IMG/VR virus record: IMGVR_UViG_3300037235_000071 | Span: 1-44,707 of that record | Reading direction: 5' to 3' (one strand) | Source: a virus | Length of the DNA: 44,707 nucleotides | Shown here: in pieces, positions 1,179 to 30,975 of the stretch | Layout: each line of letters starts with the position of its first letter | Numbering within the stretch: position 1 is the first letter of the stretch | Program-made: the position numbers and the translations under genes | Notes under the pieces: model-generated | Databases searched by the model: none | Told to the model about the DNA's origin: nothing | Seen by the model: the letters and a program-made list of their open reading frames with translations, nothing else

Positions 1179-1805
1179 TTAAGGTTTAATACTCGATCCT
1201 GGGGTCTGAGGCGCACGTCCTCGATTAGAAAGAATAACCTCAGTTATTGAGGCATCAGCTAATTGAGCCAATGCTTGCATTTCAGCGGCCTGGCCAACCG
1301 ACCCAGCAGCTAAAGCAGCAGTTCTTGGAGCAAGATAAAGTTCTCCATTAATGAATCCTATAGGAGCCGTATTCACTGTTGGGGTCGGAATCGCGCGCCA
1401 ATATCTCATAAGAATTTGTCTTATAGCAGTTGATCCAATAAAAGTAACAACTTCCTCAACCCAAGCCCACCAAATCATTGTAGTTACTGGAACTACATTT
1501 GGAAGAGGATCAGATTCAGTCATTAAAGCATAAGTATTAGCTGCTCCTCCAGAACTAGTTTCCCAGAGTTGAATAGGAGCTACTAAATCACTTGGAGGAG
1601 TCGCAAAGGAAGTCTGACCAGCAGGAATAACTTCAGTGTAATTATTCTTCATTACAGGTGCGGCAGCACGACGAAGTTTAATCTGTAACTCGTTGTGAGC
1701 CTGTTGTAATTTTGGGAACAGTGATGCATCTGTCCAGTTGGTAGCTGCATCATCATTGAGAAGCGTTCTTGCTGTTGCGAGAACTACTGAGGCTTGAACG
1801 GACAT
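1179..1805 (-). CDS. head-tail adaptor-like protein, copy 2
   Basis: A 208-residue protein with AGGAG before ATG 1805. The N-terminal TARTLLNDDAATNWTDASLF matches the adaptor pattern of small podovirus head-tail connector proteins, which bind below the portal and gate the DNA channel. The second half keeps the VNT..I, G.LYLA.R.AALA..SVG pattern shared with the copy at 1-637. One copy may be the adaptor and the other a divergent connector or nozzle-adaptor. Which has which role cannot be told from sequence alone. Confidence 0.75.
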   Translation of the reverse strand: MSVQASVVLATARTLLNDDAATNWTDASLFPKLQQAHNELQIKLRRAAAPVMKNNYTEVIPAGQTSFATPPSDLVAPIQLWETSSGGAANTYALMTESDPLPNVVPVTTMIWWAWVEEVVTFIGSTAIRQILMRYWRAIPTPTVNTAPIGFINGELYLAPRTAALAAGSVGQAAEMQALAQLADASITEVILSNRGRAPQTPGSSIKP

Positions 1806-1813
1806 TGTTTCTC

Positions 1814-2038
1814 CTAAATAAAAGGCTCAAACTGTTTACGAAAATAGTCTTGAACTATTTCCGCAGAAGAGAAACATTTTTCTATTAATTTAGTTGATTC
1901 TTCTTCATCTTTTGGCACACCTAATCGCGCGCACTCTTGGATAAAGAGATTATATGCTGTTGAGTTGATTGCTTGGAGCCTTGATTGCTGCTCCTGCTTC
2001 ATCAGTTGCTCTTGTTTATAGGCACTAGCTAGTTCCAT
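1814..2038 (-). CDS. small helical protein
   Basis: A 74-residue, Gln/Glu-rich, probably helical protein (MELASAYKQEQLMKQEQQSR). No classic AGGAG precedes its start. Instead the ATG at 2038 is preceded by an inverted repeat (2043-2057) whose loop, read on this strand, is the purine-rich AGGGG. The function is unknown; the position suggests a small head-completion or assembly factor. Confidence 0.6.
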   Translation of the reverse strand: MELASAYKQEQLMKQEQQSRLQAINSTAYNLFIQECARLGVPKDEEESTKLIEKCFSSAEIVQDYFRKQFEPFI

Positions 2039-2042
2039 AATC

Positions 2043-2057
2043 GTTCACCCCTTGAAC
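2043..2057 (-). promoter_or_regulatory. TTCA-N5-TGAA palindrome at a start codon
   Basis: On the + strand this reads GTTCA-CCCCT-TGAAC followed by ACTTAA. It is the same motif as in the control region (compare 19251-19267, also followed by ACTTA). On the transcribed strand the loop AGGGG would be the ribosome site of the gene starting at 2038, so the pairing arms would enclose it. It could act as a DNA operator or as an RNA hairpin. Confidence 0.5.
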
Positions 2058-2059
2058 AC

Positions 2060-2455
2060 TTAAAGCATCCCATTGAAGATTGCTTCAAAGGTAATAGTAT
2101 CACCAGATACATCAGCAGGAATAGCTGAACCATTTGTTAGCTCAGCAAGTCCATCCTGAGTCGCTGCTCCAGTCGTGAAAATCTTAAGCAATCCAGCAGA
2201 AGCATCAGCTCCAGGAATATAGACATAAACAAAGAGTGTTCCTGTAGTTCCAGCACCTTGTCCAATAACTCTTACAAGAATCGGAGCAAAAGTTGCTTTA
2301 ACCAATGGAAGAAAGAGATTCATAGGAATCCCACCAGTTACATACGTTGCTGGAGATACTGATATAGCAACATTTCCAATAACGTAATACTTATTCCCTG
2401 CAACCCAGGTATAACGCTCGTCAACGATAGAAGCTAATGCTACTGCTGTTGCCAT
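2060..2455 (-). CDS. probable capsid decoration or minor virion protein
   Basis: A 131-residue Ala/Gly/Thr/Val-rich, beta-type protein with no charged clusters, preceded by a good AAGGAGAAAGAG site. It lies just downstream of the capsid region, where decoration and head-stabilising proteins are usual. The low Lys/Arg content and repeated TTG/ATG turns fit a beta-sandwich virion protein. No specific family is recognised. Confidence 0.55.
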   Translation of the reverse strand: MATAVALASIVDERYTWVAGNKYYVIGNVAISVSPATYVTGGIPMNLFLPLVKATFAPILVRVIGQGAGTTGTLFVYVYIPGADASAGLLKIFTTGAATQDGLAELTNGSAIPADVSGDTITFEAIFNGML

Positions 2456-2472
2456 CTCTTTCTCCTTAAACT

Positions 2473-3099
2473 TTAAACTTTAGCTAATCTTTCTTCAACT
2501 TCTTTATGCAACTTAGGATTAACAACATGTCCATTTGAACATACTGGTAATCCCAAAGGAACAGAAACTCCACAGAAAGGACAAGAACTGGAACTCATAG
2601 TTGTCATTGGTGACATCCATTCATGCTCTTGAGCATTCCAACCAATAAAATCAGCACATTTCCTTTGAAAAGTGGAAATCACGTTATGTTGATGATAACG
2701 ACTCCAATCATTGTCAGCAAGCATTGCAGAATTAAGGAACCATTTCTTCTGCTTAAGTAAATAACGAACAATATCAACTTTGAATTTCTCTTGAGCCTCT
2801 TCAACAGTAACTCTTTCTGGAACCCAGAATAGCGCAGGTCTTGCCTCGTCATCAATAGATAACTGAGAGTTTACATAGTCATCAACAATGGCGCGCGCCA
2901 CTGTATCAGAGGGATTAGGAACACGAATTGATCCCCGTGTCTCATCCATGTAAAGAAAGTGATAGGCAGTTCCAACGTGAAGAAGTTTAGGAGTCTTCAT
3001 ATCAGAAGCTTCAATGTGAAAATGAGGAGGATAAAGACCAGGTTTATGTGCCTTTATCTCAAATGGAACGAGTGAAATTACCGTACTTTCAAGAGACAT
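2473..3099 (-). CDS. unknown protein with C-terminal zinc ribbon
   Basis: A 208-residue protein. Near residues 173-195 it has CPFCG....LPVCSNGH, a CxxC...CxxxH zinc-ribbon-like site. The N-terminal half is soluble with several His and aromatic residues (HKPGLYPPHFHIEA). Its start overlaps the previous gene by 11 bases, so translation is coupled. Such proteins recur in head-completion clusters of environmental podovirus-like genomes. The function is unknown. Confidence 0.65.
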   Translation of the reverse strand: MSLESTVISLVPFEIKAHKPGLYPPHFHIEASDMKTPKLLHVGTAYHFLYMDETRGSIRVPNPSDTVARAIVDDYVNSQLSIDDEARPALFWVPERVTVEEAQEKFKVDIVRYLLKQKKWFLNSAMLADNDWSRYHQHNVISTFQRKCADFIGWNAQEHEWMSPMTTMSSSSCPFCGVSVPLGLPVCSNGHVVNPKLHKEVEERLAKV

Positions 3100-3619
3100 T
3101 TTTTAATTCCTTATCGTAAGCTACCGAATTTCTTGCTGGACCAGAAGTCTTTAACCACCCAGGATGATCATCAAATGAATCAATCTGAGCTTGAATTTCT
3201 TTTTCATCAGCTTCTTTTTCAGAGATTTCATCGTCTTTTCTAACTCTGCCTTGAATAGCAGCAATTAAAAAAGTTAGTATTTTATGAGTTACTGGAAGAG
3301 GATTTCCATTTTTATCCTCAAAGACCCAAATTGGAATATAGTCTCCACCTTTAGCATCAGGAACTTCACCATTAAAAGAAAGATCATCATCTTTCCAACC
3401 TTCAAGAATATAACGATTATGAATATAATTGTATTTCTTCAACTCTCTAACTCCTCTAATAGTACGAAGATATATTTGACCATAAAATTCATTAAATTCA
3501 CCCTTACGATTTTCAAGAATATCTTCAGACCAAACTAATCTGAATTTAGTTTTTCCAGTGACAGTTTTCCCGAATGATTCTCGGAGCCACTTATTTAGTG
3601 ATTTATGTTCTTCAGTCAT
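3089..3619 (-). CDS. unknown protein, head region
   Basis: A 176-residue charged protein (MTEEHKSLNKWLRESFGKTVTGKTKFRLVWSEDI is its N-terminal section, shown here only as a landmark of residues 1-20: MTEEHKSLNKWLRESFGKTV). It has no membrane segment and an acidic, helical C-terminal third (EISEKEADEKEIQ). It follows the major capsid gene after a hairpin-rich gap, and it overlaps the next gene. I do not recognise the family. Confidence 0.6.
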   Translation of the reverse strand: MTEEHKSLNKWLRESFGKTVTGKTKFRLVWSEDILENRKGEFNEFYGQIYLRTIRGVRELKKYNYIHNRYILEGWKDDDLSFNGEVPDAKGGDYIPIWVFEDKNGNPLPVTHKILTFLIAAIQGRVRKDDEISEKEADEKEIQAQIDSFDDHPGWLKTSGPARNSVAYDKELKNVS

Positions 3620-3628
3620 TTTTGTATT

Positions 3629-3658
3629 GAGGAGACTTCTTTAGAGAGAAGTCTCCTC
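3629..3658. terminator. 12-bp perfect hairpin downstream of the capsid gene
   Basis: GAGGAGACTTCT (3629-3640) pairs perfectly with AGAAGTCTCCTC (3647-3658) across a 6-base loop. On the + strand TTTT follows. On the transcribed minus strand there is no U-run, so it may be a partial terminator or an mRNA-stability or processing stem that sets capsid mRNA apart from the downstream genes. Confidence 0.6.
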
Positions 3659-3669
3659 TTTTCCTGAGT

Positions 3670-3693
3670 TTACTGATAAGGAGAAATCAGTAA
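3670..3693. other. second hairpin overlapping the capsid stop codon
   Basis: TTACTGAT (3670-3677) pairs with ATCAGTAA (3686-3693) across an 8-base loop. It lies next to the larger stem at 3629-3658 and covers the last codons of the capsid gene. Tandem stems at the 3' end of capsid mRNA are consistent with transcript stabilisation. Confidence 0.5.
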
Positions 3694-4955
3694 CCAGAAG
3701 GAATCGCTAGATCGTAAATATAACTTGCACCCGCTGGCTGGTTCATGAACAAGTTGAAACTTGTCACAATGTAGAAAATCCAAGCCGCAGCAACTCCACC
3801 TGAAGGTCCACGAAGTTCCCAGACTCTCTGATTGTTATCAGGATTGGTGTAGAAACCCGGGGACTTCAACTCGGCGCGCCCCCAAACTTCAGAATCAATA
3901 AAGTCAATACGAGTCCTATCCCAAGAGTAAGAGACTTTCAGCGGCGCGCCCGCGATTCTCATGTTGTCATTGAAATACATATCGAGGCCCTCTTCTTTGG
4001 CAGCCTTGTCGATACGTATCACATTGAAACCAAGTTCCTCATAAGCAGCTTGCTGAGCTTTATGCGTCCAAGCTGTCATTTTAGAACCTTTATTTATTCC
4101 AATCCTGTCACCAATCTTGTTCATCGCAAGACGAGGTAGGGGAAGTGTAAGAGCAGAACCATTAGCGTTAACCGCGTTGGCCCTGATTTCAGGATTCAAG
4201 GCTCTATCAAAGGAAAGCCACGTTCCAACAGAGGAGTTATTGTTATGATATTTCACCCCAAGAAGTGCAACTGGAGGAATATTCTGAAGTCCCCCAGAAA
4301 CAATTAAGTCTCCAGCAGTTGCTCCAGCAACAGAAGGAACTTGAATCTGACTGTTTTCAAGATCATAGTAAATAATCTTAGCCTGATTCTGAACTCCTCC
4401 AGCAGTTCTGCAAGTTATGAGAGTAGAGTTGTAAATATTGAGTTGCTGCTTAGAACGAAGCAAACGAACTCTGAACCCGTCAGTTGTACAGGTATAGGTA
4501 TCAATTCCTGCCGTCGTCGAGACACTTGTAATAGTCCCAAGAGTTCCAGTTCCATCTGTCATGCATTGGCTATCCACATCACGACGGAACTGTTTCATCT
4601 CAACTGCAAGAGAATTACGAAAAGCATTGATAACAGCTTTTCTGGTGTTATCTGTTGACCAGATTGTTTTCGCCGTCATCTCAACAGGATGCTCAAGATG
4701 AACAGAGTTAATCAATCCTTTGTCAAAGTCAGAAATATCACCACGACCCATATCTCCACCATCTGGGTCATAATAAGAGGTATTACCGTTAGGGCGAATC
4801 TCAAGAGGAATTCGCATGTCACGAGACGAGATAACTTCAACAGGTCTCTTTTCGATCGTGCTGTAAAACACGTCGTCCCTATCAAACATCGCTGGAACTT
4901 TAGGCAGGACTCTTTCTAGTTCTGCCCCAATAACTTGACTTTCATTGCCTGCCAT
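3687..4955 (-). CDS. major capsid protein
   Basis: A 422-residue protein directly downstream of the acidic scaffold-like gene, with an AGGAGAAAACG site before ATG 4955. It has the length and mixed alpha/beta make-up of HK97-fold coat proteins of podovirus-type phages: a long N-terminal region (residues 1-90), then FRNSLAVEMKQFRRDVDSQ as a spine-helix-like stretch, and a Gly/Asn-rich central part. It would form the icosahedral shell. Two GGCGCGCC palindromes lie within 80 bases in the 3' half. The identity rests on length, neighbours and composition; no catalytic motif applies. Confidence 0.8.
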   Translation of the reverse strand: MAGNESQVIGAELERVLPKVPAMFDRDDVFYSTIEKRPVEVISSRDMRIPLEIRPNGNTSYYDPDGGDMGRGDISDFDKGLINSVHLEHPVEMTAKTIWSTDNTRKAVINAFRNSLAVEMKQFRRDVDSQCMTDGTGTLGTITSVSTTAGIDTYTCTTDGFRVRLLRSKQQLNIYNSTLITCRTAGGVQNQAKIIYYDLENSQIQVPSVAGATAGDLIVSGGLQNIPPVALLGVKYHNNNSSVGTWLSFDRALNPEIRANAVNANGSALTLPLPRLAMNKIGDRIGINKGSKMTAWTHKAQQAAYEELGFNVIRIDKAAKEEGLDMYFNDNMRIAGAPLKVSYSWDRTRIDFIDSEVWGRAELKSPGFYTNPDNNQRVWELRGPSGGVAAAWIFYIVTSFNLFMNQPAGASYIYDLAIPSGY

Positions 4956-14245: not shown

Positions 14246-14576
14246 AACGTCCTGACTGTCCAATTACGCGCGCGTGATCGTCTGCTTCAAGACGAGATTT
14301 CATACTTGACCATCTTGTAGGACCATTACTTATTGGACGAAGATTTTCTTGATTAGTTTCTGGAGAATTCTCAGAAATTAAAACACCAAACCTTTTAAAT
14401 ATTAAATCTTGTAAGAATTTTCTTTCAGTTCTTTCAGCTAATAGCTGTGCCTCCAAACTATCAACGCGCGCGCGATATATTAAAGCAAACTCTCGTTGAG
14501 CATTGTATTCAGTATTTAATTGAAGATATTCTTCTTTTGTTGCACCTTTAAAGAAATGAATTAACCAATTTTTCAT
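14223..14576 (-). CDS. coiled-coil protein next to large terminase
   Basis: A 117-residue protein with an amphipathic N-terminus (MKNWLIHFFKG) and a heptad-like helical section (TEYNAQREFALIYRARVDSL, then AQLLAERTERKFLQ). It overlaps the terminase stop by 4 bases. The function is unknown; a packaging or membrane-associated accessory is conceivable. Confidence 0.55.
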   Translation of the reverse strand: MKNWLIHFFKGATKEEYLQLNTEYNAQREFALIYRARVDSLEAQLLAERTERKFLQDLIFKRFGVLISENSPETNQENLRPISNGPTRWSSMKSRLEADDHARVIGQSGRYEEKTSA

Positions 14577-28823: not shown

Positions 28824-29219
28824 ATGCCTGAGGTACAATTTACAAAAGAGAACCTTCTTGAACGCAAGCAACTTAAAGCAGGCTGGCGTAAACTCAAGGT
28901 CAAGTCAGTCAGTGAGGCTCCAGGAAAGAACGATCCTGATAGCATCACATGGCCAACAGTGTTCGTCGTTGACGAAGGGGAAGACCTTGGAGTACCTGTG
29001 AATCATTGGTTCACGGAGAAACAAATGGGTCGTCTCAGTGAGTTCGTGATGTGTTTCACTGGTGGGGCTGTTGATCCCAACAAGAAGTACAAGTTGGAAG
29101 ATACAGTTGGTCGTCTTGTCTTGGGTTATGTTGAGTACGACATTAAGAGCGGATTCAACATAATCAAGGACTTCAAACCTATCTCGAAAGGACAGAAGGA
29201 GGACAAAGCCAGTGCCTAA
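28824..29219 (+). CDS. SSB-like protein (DUF669-type), partner of the Sak4-like ATPase
   Basis: A 131-residue protein, mainly beta with a central WPTVFVVDEGEDLGVPVNHW and TVGRLVLGYVEYDIKSG. The length, strand pattern and position after a Sak4-like gene match the DUF669-type SSB-like proteins that pair with these ATPases. It should coat single-stranded DNA. The assignment is inferred; no strict motif exists. Confidence 0.55.
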   Translation: MPEVQFTKENLLERKQLKAGWRKLKVKSVSEAPGKNDPDSITWPTVFVVDEGEDLGVPVNHWFTEKQMGRLSEFVMCFTGGAVDPNKKYKLEDTVGRLVLGYVEYDIKSGFNIIKDFKPISKGQKEDKASA

Positions 29220-29397
29220 ATTCGTTGCAACTGTGAATCTCTCACTCGAAGCTGAGTCAGAGAGTGACTTCAGTACAAAACTCGGAGCAGCTTTGACTGC
29301 TTTCGATTATGAAGTTGAAGAAGGTCCAGAAGAAATTCTCCCTGAAGACGAAGAGGATGAAGAACCTTCTGAACCTACAACGGAGGAAGAAGAGTAG
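29212..29397 (+). CDS. small protein with acidic tail
   Basis: A 61-residue protein starting at GTG 29212, with GGAGG 10 bases upstream and an overlap with the SSB-like stop. Residues 38-61 are nearly all Glu, Asp and Pro. SSB proteins recruit partners through acidic C-termini; here the tail could be supplied by a separate coupled protein. This is inference. Confidence 0.5.
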   Translation: MPKFVATVNLSLEAESESDFSTKLGAALTAFDYEVEEGPEEILPEDEEDEEPSEPTTEEEE

Positions 29398-29403
29398 TTA
29401 ACC

Positions 29404-29501
29404 CTTAGTGCGCGCGAATTAAATATCGGAGTCGGCTCTAGAGCACGACAGTCAAAAGAATATGAGTTTTTCGGTTAGATCAGCCACCGACGCGCACTAA
29501 G
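29404..29501 (+). ncRNA. three-way structured element, candidate RNA 2
   Basis: An 11-bp perfect closing stem (CTTAGTGCGCG 29404-29414 with CGCGCACTAAG 29491-29501) encloses two hairpins: GTCG..CTCTAGAG..CGAC (29431-29449) and TCGGT/ACCGA (29471-29475 with 29486-29490). The second hairpin abuts the closing stem. The element fills the gap before the RHH gene, just upstream of its operator-like palindrome. No tRNA, intron or known riboswitch pattern fits. Confidence 0.55.
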
Positions 29502-29502
29502 T

Positions 29503-29524
29503 ATTCATCAAGTGAACAATTATG
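29503..29524 (+). promoter_or_regulatory. operator-like palindrome on the RHH gene start
   Basis: ATTCA-TCAAG-TGAAC (29503-29517) followed by AATT and the start codon. AAGTGAACAATTATG (29510-29524) recurs at 29704-29718 on the start of the ParB-methyltransferase gene. Neither gene has a GGAG-type ribosome site. Confidence 0.55.
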
Positions 29525-29746
29525 ACAAGAGTTAAAACAGGAAAAAGAACTGATAAATCTGGAACAGCAATATTTTGTGAATTACATATGTCTCGTAGAG
29601 ATATAAGCGATCTTATTAATTATTGTAATGATCTTAATTTATCTTTAAATGCTTTAGTCAGAAAATTACTTCAAAAAGAACTTTTAGATAAAAGTTTTAT
29701 AATAAGTGAACAATTATGGATCAAAACATTCCAATCAATCAGATAA
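29522..29746 (+). CDS. ribbon-helix-helix DNA-binding protein
   Basis: A 74-residue protein with the RHH layout: strand AIFCELHM, helix SRRDISDLINYCNDLN, helix LSLNALVRKLLQKELL. RHH dimers bind palindromic operators, and one (29503-29517) covers its own start codon, so autoregulation is likely. It is a candidate reader of the whole TTCA-N5-TGAA set. It overlaps the ParB-methyltransferase gene by 31 bases. Confidence 0.65.
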   Translation: MTRVKTGKRTDKSGTAIFCELHMSRRDISDLINYCNDLNLSLNALVRKLLQKELLDKSFIISEQLWIKTFQSIR

Positions 29747-30975
29747 TTTCACTAGATCAATCATATAAATATGATAAAGATCAATTTGAACTTCTCAAGA
29801 AGTCAATTGAGATTAATGGACTTTTTCACTCAGTAATTCTTCAAGAGACTTTTGAATATCCTGGAGATTTTATAATAGAGTCAGGAAATTGCAAATTTTA
29901 TAAAATAATAGCGGGGCGCGCCCGTTTTTTAGCACTTAAAGAATTAGGAAAAACAGAAATACTAGCTAAAGTATTACCTTACAATTGCTCCAACCCTCAC
30001 GAAATAGCACTTCACGAGAATCTACGTCGTAATAATCTTCCTTGGTACGAGCAAGTTGAATTAGAGAAAGAACTTCATGACCTTCGTACACAACAACATG
30101 GAGAGAAGAAAAAAGGACGACCATTTGAAGGAGACTCCAAACAAGGCTGGTCACAGAACGATACAGCAAGAGAACTTGGACTTGCACTTGGGACATTCTC
30201 TCAAGATATGGCTCTAGCAACTGAGTTGCAAAAGAATCCTTATTTACGAGATGTTAAAGATAAGTCAACTGCTTTAAAAATAATCAGACAAATAAATAAG
30301 CAGCAAATAGCTGAAATAGAGCAAATGCTTCCAAGTGAGTTAGAGCTTGACGATATTCTTCTAGGTGATTCTGCAGTAATTCTTAAGTCATTTCCTAATG
30401 ACACTTTTGATGCCTGCATTACAGATCCTTTATGGTCTGAGTATAAAGATGAAGAACTTAGATCAGCACAAGATAAATTTTTACCAATTTACTTTGAACT
30501 ATTTAGAGTTCTTAAAAGAGATTCCTTTTTGATAATAATAACTTCCTCTACAGACTTTCCATTTTATATTAGAGAGCTCCCAAAAATAGGATTTAGAGTT
30601 CAATCTTACCCAATAATATGGCAAAAAACAAAAACCATTACTTATGGAAGAGCTCCTTGGCAATTTGCTAGGGATTATGAACCAATAGTAGTAGCTGTTA
30701 AAGGAGATCCTATACTTACTGTAAGAACAGAGATGAGTTCTATCCTTAAATTTGATAATTTACACTACTCAAAAATGATACACCCTCATGAGAAACCTAT
30801 AGAGCTAATTGAAAATATTATAAAATTAATTACCAATCCTGGAGCTAAAATTATTGATCCTTTTGCAGGAAGCTTTGTAGTTTGCGAGGCTTGCAGAAAA
30901 ACTGATAGGAGGTTTATTGGGATAGATATTAATAAAGAATTTTATGATAAAGGAAAGGAAAGATTAAATTTATGA
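29716..30975 (+). CDS. ParB-domain DNA methyltransferase
   Basis: A 419-residue fusion. Residues 1-190 form a ParB-like domain (GRARFLALKELG, ALHENLRRNNLPWYEQVELE) with a helix-turn-helix near GWSQNDTARELGLALGTFSQ. Residues about 205-419 form an amino-methyltransferase of the beta order: motif IV TDPLWSEY (about 235, DPLW instead of DPPY/W), then HPHEKP, then motif I DPFAGSF (about 380) and FIGIDINKE. It should methylate adenine N6 or cytosine N4. It may protect phage DNA or mark it for timing. Confidence 0.85.
   Translation: MDQNIPINQIISLDQSYKYDKDQFELLKKSIEINGLFHSVILQETFEYPGDFIIESGNCKFYKIIAGRARFLALKELGKTEILAKVLPYNCSNPHEIALHENLRRNNLPWYEQVELEKELHDLRTQQHGEKKKGRPFEGDSKQGWSQNDTARELGLALGTFSQDMALATELQKNPYLRDVKDKSTALKIIRQINKQQIAEIEQMLPSELELDDILLGDSAVILKSFPNDTFDACITDPLWSEYKDEELRSAQDKFLPIYFELFRVLKRDSFLIIITSSTDFPFYIRELPKIGFRVQSYPIIWQKTKTITYGRAPWQFARDYEPIVVAVKGDPILTVRTEMSSILKFDNLHYSKMIHPHEKPIELIENIIKLITNPGAKIIDPFAGSFVVCEACRKTDRRFIGIDINKEFYDKGKERLNL

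Follow-up and report, generated by a model that had tools for sequence, protein, structure and literature searches.

A probable new family of structured RNAs in uncultured phages, commonly found next to SSB-like genes

A structured RNA family and its member in the window

The 98-nt element at positions 29404 to 29501 (plus strand) of a 44.7-kb IMG/VR virus record, which was analyzed at its full length of 44,707 nt and is called the window here, very probably belongs to a new family of structured phage RNAs; from comparison of sequences, we put the probability at about 0.93. Pattern scans and reading by eye yielded 22 instances of this family in 16 viruses, all of them uncultured. The family consensus reads P1 - CGAAU[N or hairpin]AAAUA - P2 (UCGG/CCGA) - variable insert - ACCGA - P1', is relaxed in a few divergent copies, and includes a core of about 22 invariant nucleotides and an insert of about 30 to 280 nt.

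In the window, the closing stem P1 is formed by CTTAGTGCGCG (29404 to 29414) and CGCGCACTAAG (29491 to 29501), which are 100% complementary over 11 bp. Within it follow the conserved junction CGAATTAAATA (29415 to 29425; CGAAU N AAAUA in the family), the 5' strand of P2, UCGG (29426 to 29429), and the variable insert, which contains a hairpin specific to the window phage (GTCGGCTCTAGAGCACGAC, 29431 to 29449) and the P3 hairpin GGTTAGATCAGCC (29473 to 29485), located immediately 5' of ACCGA. The 3' strand of P2, CCGA (29487 to 29490), lies within the conserved CACCGA at 29485 to 29490. All these parts are on the plus strand, and the element is an exact match to the family core CGAAU[N or hairpin]AAAUA-UCGGA ... 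CACCGA. The predicted fold is multibranched, with P1 and P2 nested, and has an energy of -32.5 kcal/mol (z = -3.30; 1 of 200 dinucleotide shuffles was equally good). The 98-base element with a perfect 11-bp closing stem that a preliminary description of this DNA had reported is thus borne out. The GCGCGC-type sequence that it had pointed out in the stem is present as well, but is not specific to it, since GCGCGC is enriched all over the window genome. The element is not an intrinsic terminator in the sense of a G+C-rich hairpin followed by a T run: the window P1' is directly followed by TATTCATC, and a T run after P1' is absent in most family members.

The family search set out from two groups of relatives, those of the ParB-methyltransferase and those of the SSB-like gene. 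The words TGCGCGCGAATNAAATATCGGA ... CCACCGACGCGCA were common to the window and to L010, L018, and L052. When 2.9 million viral contigs were scanned with a pattern, 12 hits were obtained, and CACCGA and a complementary P1' were present in 11. A looser pattern gave 47 hits and added L108, L111, L123, and L128, with very different P1 sequences; the other hits were dropped as chance matches without CACCGA or P1'. When a junction hairpin was permitted, L272 and L287 were added; in these two, as in two of the L111 copies, a hairpin takes the place of the one base that follows CGAAU. Further divergent copies (three in L111 and one in L018) were recognized by eye and are given less weight than the other instances, and L012, L066, and L068, which repeat the L010 element, were left out of the count of 22. 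The P3 hairpin directly before ACCGA has a mean of 3.1 pairs, compared to 1.5 by chance; it is present in most members and absent from the L111 copies.

According to the preliminary description, a lack of covariation in homologues would speak against a structured RNA. P1 does covary. Over the 22 instances it has a mean of 7.36 contiguous pairs versus 2.53 with shuffled partners, and none of 5,000 shuffles reached the observed mean (shuffle maximum, 4.45). In an alignment of 15 sequences, six of the eight P1 pairs changed on both sides, the innermost pair being G-C, C-G, or U-A among instances, and the covariation score was 0.373 versus 0.086 for shuffles (0 of 500 as high) and at most 0.073 for slid partners. 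P2, being invariant in the alignment, shows no covariation, and its pairing (UCGG/CCGA) therefore rests on complementarity; in one divergent copy (L018, 2712 to 2805), P2 could pair as ACGG/CCGU. P1 contains five G-U and no A-C pairs, which favors an RNA read from the gene-sense strand.

Several controls bear on the specificity of the pattern. A core with the P2 uridine changed, scanned on viral contigs as a one-base control, gave 111 hits and no real element, and the exact core gave 27 hits, none of them real, in one genome per species from 84,980 prokaryote species. The exact stem pattern had no hit in the scan of viral contigs, and blastn of the region found no match in 50,697 phage records. 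The short-core blastn hits in named phages were due to chance among those inspected; the one in KpGz_1, for instance, lies within an ORF and has no P1'. The window element scored 77.4 bits (E = 3.4e-15) against the covariance model R1, the window being in its training set, and for the model from 15 sequences, high scores on its training sequences follow from the way it was built; this latter model found nothing convincing in the full records of L001 to L005, L011, and L013 to L015. Six GenBank phages have the same replication module, among them Desulfofustis phage LS06-2018-MD01, Microcystis phage Mel-JY34, and Caulobacter phage Kuura, and the element was absent in the stretches fetched from all six.

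Genomic setting and neighboring genes

The commonest neighbor of the element across the family is a gene for an SSB-like OB-fold protein, located at 28824 to 29219 (plus strand) in the window. The model of this protein is an OB fold (pLDDT, 86.7), its best PDB match is PrgE (E = 9.9e-5), and its viral matches are DUF669 and an SSB; the protein is too diverged for a Pfam match, and two of its homologues match the PHROG SSB family. It is followed in the window by a gene for a small acidic protein (29212 to 29397, plus strand), the stop codon of which lies 6 nt before the start of the element. In the broad lineage of the window, the gene order is nuclease - Sak4-like ATPase - SSB-like - [RNA] - ... 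- UDG-PolA. The element lies directly 3' of the SSB-like gene in seven viruses (L010, L062, L065, L067, L069, L073, and L287) and 3' of the acidic neighbor of this gene in three (the window, L018, and L052). The intergenic gap usually contains little besides the element, the distance from P1' to the next start codon is 4 to 37 nt in most instances, and the orientation is that of the flanking genes wherever it can be assigned. Most genomes harbor one copy, close to SSB, Sak4, and PolA genes.

Some members are found in other settings. A 378-kb phage harbors two copies in noncoding stretches, with tRNAs on the same contig pieces and with terminator-like and TATA-like flanks that were read by eye. 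In L111, five divergent and partly nested copies occupy 646 to 792 and 2060 to 2690: four modules, with one of them placed inside the insert of a second, take up about 640 nt that contain no convincing genes, and the fifth lies 1.4 kb upstream of the others. In L070 (minus strand; 1422 to 4637 on the reverse complement), two separate genes encode UDG-PolA, one its UDG/exonuclease half and the other its polymerase half, and the RNA is located between them together with two small ORFs. We rejected an intron here: a start and a stop codon are present in each half and the two are separated by small genes, so that no splicing is needed. A leader peptide was likewise rejected, the reading frames in the 3' part differing between members as judged by eye.

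The element was initially seen as one cassette with the two genes that follow it in the window, a gene for a 74-aa ribbon-helix-helix (RHH)-like protein (29522 to 29746, plus strand, 25% GC) and a ParB-like/N6_N4 methyltransferase gene (29716 to 30975, plus strand). The identification of the latter as a ParB-methyltransferase was correct, its product being a ParB-like plus N6_N4_Mtase protein. We regard both genes as neighbors only. Indeed, the methyltransferase occurs without the element in most relatives (L001 to L005, L011, and L013 to L015), while the element occurs without RHH or methyltransferase before acidic-protein genes, before small ORFs, within the split PolA gene, and in noncoding stretches. 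The 74-aa protein has no Pfam, PHROG, or PDB sequence match; its AlphaFold model, of low confidence (pLDDT, 58), has strands followed by two helices, and this predicted fold would be compatible with RHH without being proof of it. By tblastn, no homologue was found in 50,697 phage records, and L001 and L002 have no RHH-like gene at the corresponding place.

As described earlier, the two start codons share a sequence: AAGTGAACAATTATG is exact at 29510 to 29524 (start of the RHH-like gene) and at 29704 to 29718 (start of the methyltransferase gene), both on the plus strand, so that from 29510 to 29718 the RHH-like gene is flanked by exact 15-bp start-region repeats. L001 has a single GGTGAACAATTATG ahead of its methyltransferase, and the RHH-like gene therefore seems to have been inserted late, at the point where the methyltransferase gene starts. 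That the two starts lack normal ribosome sites was an overstatement: several window genes use a GGTGA-type Shine-Dalgarno at the same spacing (for example, AAGGTGAACACATG and GGGGTGAACGATTATG), and AAGTGA is a one-mismatch version of it.

The methyltransferase of the window has the motifs DPLW and FAGSF. Its residues at P239 (DPPW to DPLW) and G387 (FAGSG to FAGSF) differ from 13 of 13 aligned relatives, the intact DPP[YFW] and FxGxG motifs of an active N6/N4 DNA methyltransferase are thus not found in this copy, and its activity is doubtful; an assembly error might conceivably account for the changes. In favor of the proposed self-regulated switch, which would be composed of RNA, RHH, and methyltransferase and would time DNA methylation, are the adjacency of the three in the window and the 15-nt start region shared by the two genes. 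Given the insertion-like look of the RHH gene and the altered methyltransferase motifs, the switch finds no support, and with element and methyltransferase each occurring without the other and RHH not found in the relatives examined, we consider it highly improbable.

The operator-like palindrome described between the element and the RHH gene, TTCA-N5-TGAA, is present at 29503 to 29517 and is not part of the RNA. With at most one mismatch, GTTCAN5TGAAC occurs eight times in the window compared to 2.2 expected (0 of 100 shuffles), at 2043, 10401, 18915, 19252, 19756, 22313, 29503, and 34736. Three of these copies lie in a divergent region at 18.9 to 19.8 kb and some sites overlap GGTGA ribosome sites; the palindrome is a putative operator or ribosome-site hairpin. 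GCGCGC occurs 63 times in the window, compared to 1.1 occurrences expected at a genomic GC content of 38%; most are within coding sequence, and they form 49 runs (for example, at 14465, 16232, 22336, 31912, and 35214) with a median spacing of 784 bp. Relatives with the ParB-methyltransferase show the same excess (observed/expected: L001, 21/0.5; L002, 21/1.4; L011, 24/2.6; L013, 9/0.2), and it is absent in element-bearing phages outside the ParB-methyltransferase clade. Possibly the ParB-methyltransferase recognizes GCGCGC, or the word serves as some other genome-wide signal.

Possible roles of the element

Our preferred account, which we hold tentatively and at somewhat less than even odds, is that the element folds during transcription and works in cis between cistrons, as a boundary of the ssb message. 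In the family fold, the one-sided conserved junction CGAAU...AAAUA, which can hold an extra hairpin, lies between the helix P1 and the predicted helix P2, and beyond P2 comes the variable insert, ending in P3 in most members. In the window, folding would take place within the polycistronic early mRNA, after the SSB-like and acidic genes and ahead of the next cistron. It may shield or define the 3' end of the ssb message, and the folded boundary may uncouple the next cistron, while the invariant core would be either bound by a protein or nuclease or self-cleaving. Since the same module is found in noncoding regions of large phages, the fold could also work apart from ssb.

Related phages that have no element bear on this account. 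At the same place, 10 of 14 have a fold with z < -2, versus 8 of 30 other intergenic gaps, and the comparison of all 25 loci with control gaps, the latter chosen by hand, gave p = 0.002 (Mann-Whitney). These stable folds suggest a function that concerns the end of the ssb message, be it boundary formation, processing, or stability. Other, different folds were seen at this intergenic place in L001 (4864 to 4991), L002 (4357 to 4493), L004 (4447 to 4890), and L013 (3459 to 3571); some share TAAATAA, and they are possibly further RNA families. In Desulfofustis phage LS06-2018-MD01 (L339), a long hairpin, AAGGCTATAGTAGATAAC...GTTATCTACTATAGCCTT (4323 to 4395; z = -9.3), lies shortly 3' of the ATPase/SSB-like genes.

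About 22 invariant nucleotides are more than a simple boundary would require, and this counts against the boundary model, as do the noncoding copies of the 378-kb phage. Because of its invariant core, the element is likely to be more than a plain hairpin, and self-cleavage or protein binding, both putative, are therefore plausible. We consider it possible, but doubtful, that the family represents a novel phage RNA class that has a chemistry of its own or acts in trans, for instance as a self-cleaving ribozyme or a host-factor decoy RNA, and that is carried both inside replication operons and, in large phages, in noncoding regions. A new self-cleaving ribozyme, taken by itself as a candidate that cuts the polycistronic transcript or the noncoding RNA at or near the element, is unlikely: a compact invariant junction core between two short helices, the tolerance of inserts up to about 280 nt and of optional hairpins, the intercistronic position, and the precedent of phage ribozymes near tRNAs (PMC10879173) argue for it, but no known Rfam ribozyme matches and no cleavage-site flank is conserved outside P1. 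A trans-acting noncoding RNA, serving as decoy or scaffold and freed by processing from the operon copies, seems slightly less likely still. The copies of the 378-kb phage, with their flanks and nearby tRNAs, suggest a free RNA, as would the L111 array of modules without genes between them; however, these promoters and terminators were read by eye only, and most members sit tightly between operon genes.

That P1' ends 4 to 37 nt before a start codon in most instances makes control of the next gene possible, and the closest gaps (L010, L018, L052, L062, and L063) have no strong Shine-Dalgarno. A leader-type regulator, controlling translation or transcription of the following gene via a protein or ligand, nevertheless strikes us as rather doubtful, as the genes downstream have nothing in common (methyltransferase, RHH-like, acidic protein, and unrelated small ORFs) and the large phages have no close following gene. 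Less probable than any of these is a structure in single-stranded DNA, such as a replication or priming signal of the kind once considered for STAXI. It would fit the mostly single copy per genome near SSB, Sak4, and PolA genes, but the G-U pairs and the lack of A-C pairs in P1, the orientation shared with assignable flanking genes, and the noncoding copies far from replication genes speak against it.

Relation to known systems and significance

The window had no match in Rfam 15 at gathering scores; at E of 10 or less, the window and L052 elements had only chance-level matches (E of 4 to 8), and 12 element-bearing loci yielded tRNAs only. STAXI is an orphan structured element that is often found near SSB and other DNA-handling genes and can be tandem, and its nature as RNA or single-stranded DNA was discussed by Weinberg et al. 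in 2010 (PMC2864571). The new family resembles it in also lying near SSB and other DNA-handling genes and in its ability to occur in tandem. However, STAXI forms a repeated pseudoknot in which UUCG loops are common (PMC2864571), whereas the new family has a nested P1/P2 junction and an invariant CGAAUNAAAUAUCGGA...CACCGA core, and the STAXI Rfam model had no match in the window or in the 12 element-bearing loci. Like theta (HDV-like) ribozymes, the new elements are small structured RNAs in tailed-phage genomes, near tRNAs in the large phage. HDV-like RNAs form a nested double pseudoknot, and the tRNA-associated ones cleave at the tRNA 3' end (PMC10879173); the new family, by contrast, is predicted to be nested (P1/P2) without this double pseudoknot, is mostly intercistronic, and has no Rfam match.

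Phage operons also have intercistronic processing or stabilizing hairpins, such as the RNase III sites of T7. The new elements share the position between genes with these, and plain hairpins are found at the same place in related phages, but the intercistronic hairpins of phage operons are simple and have no invariant junction core. As for the neighboring proteins, the SSB-like gene product has the same fold as PrgE/DUF669-type single-stranded-DNA-binding proteins, differing in a sequence too diverged for Pfam. Fusions of ParB-CTPase and N6N4-methyltransferase are more frequent in phages than in bacteria (PMC12704722). The window methyltransferase is the same domain fusion, but with DPLW and FAGSF, and accompanies the RNA as a neighbor rather than as a part of it.

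Structured RNAs in intergenic regions of phages are already known, and the novelty lies in the RNA family itself, judged by the lack of an Rfam match and with preprints outside the search. It adds to the biology of diverse uncultured tailed phages an uncatalogued class of RNA with a strongly conserved core, absent from cellular genomes in the exact-core scan made here. Strongly conserved RNA cores usually serve catalysis or specific binding. Owing to the short consensus, self-cleavage, protein binding, and mRNA processing are each testable with a synthetic RNA of ~75 to 100 nt.
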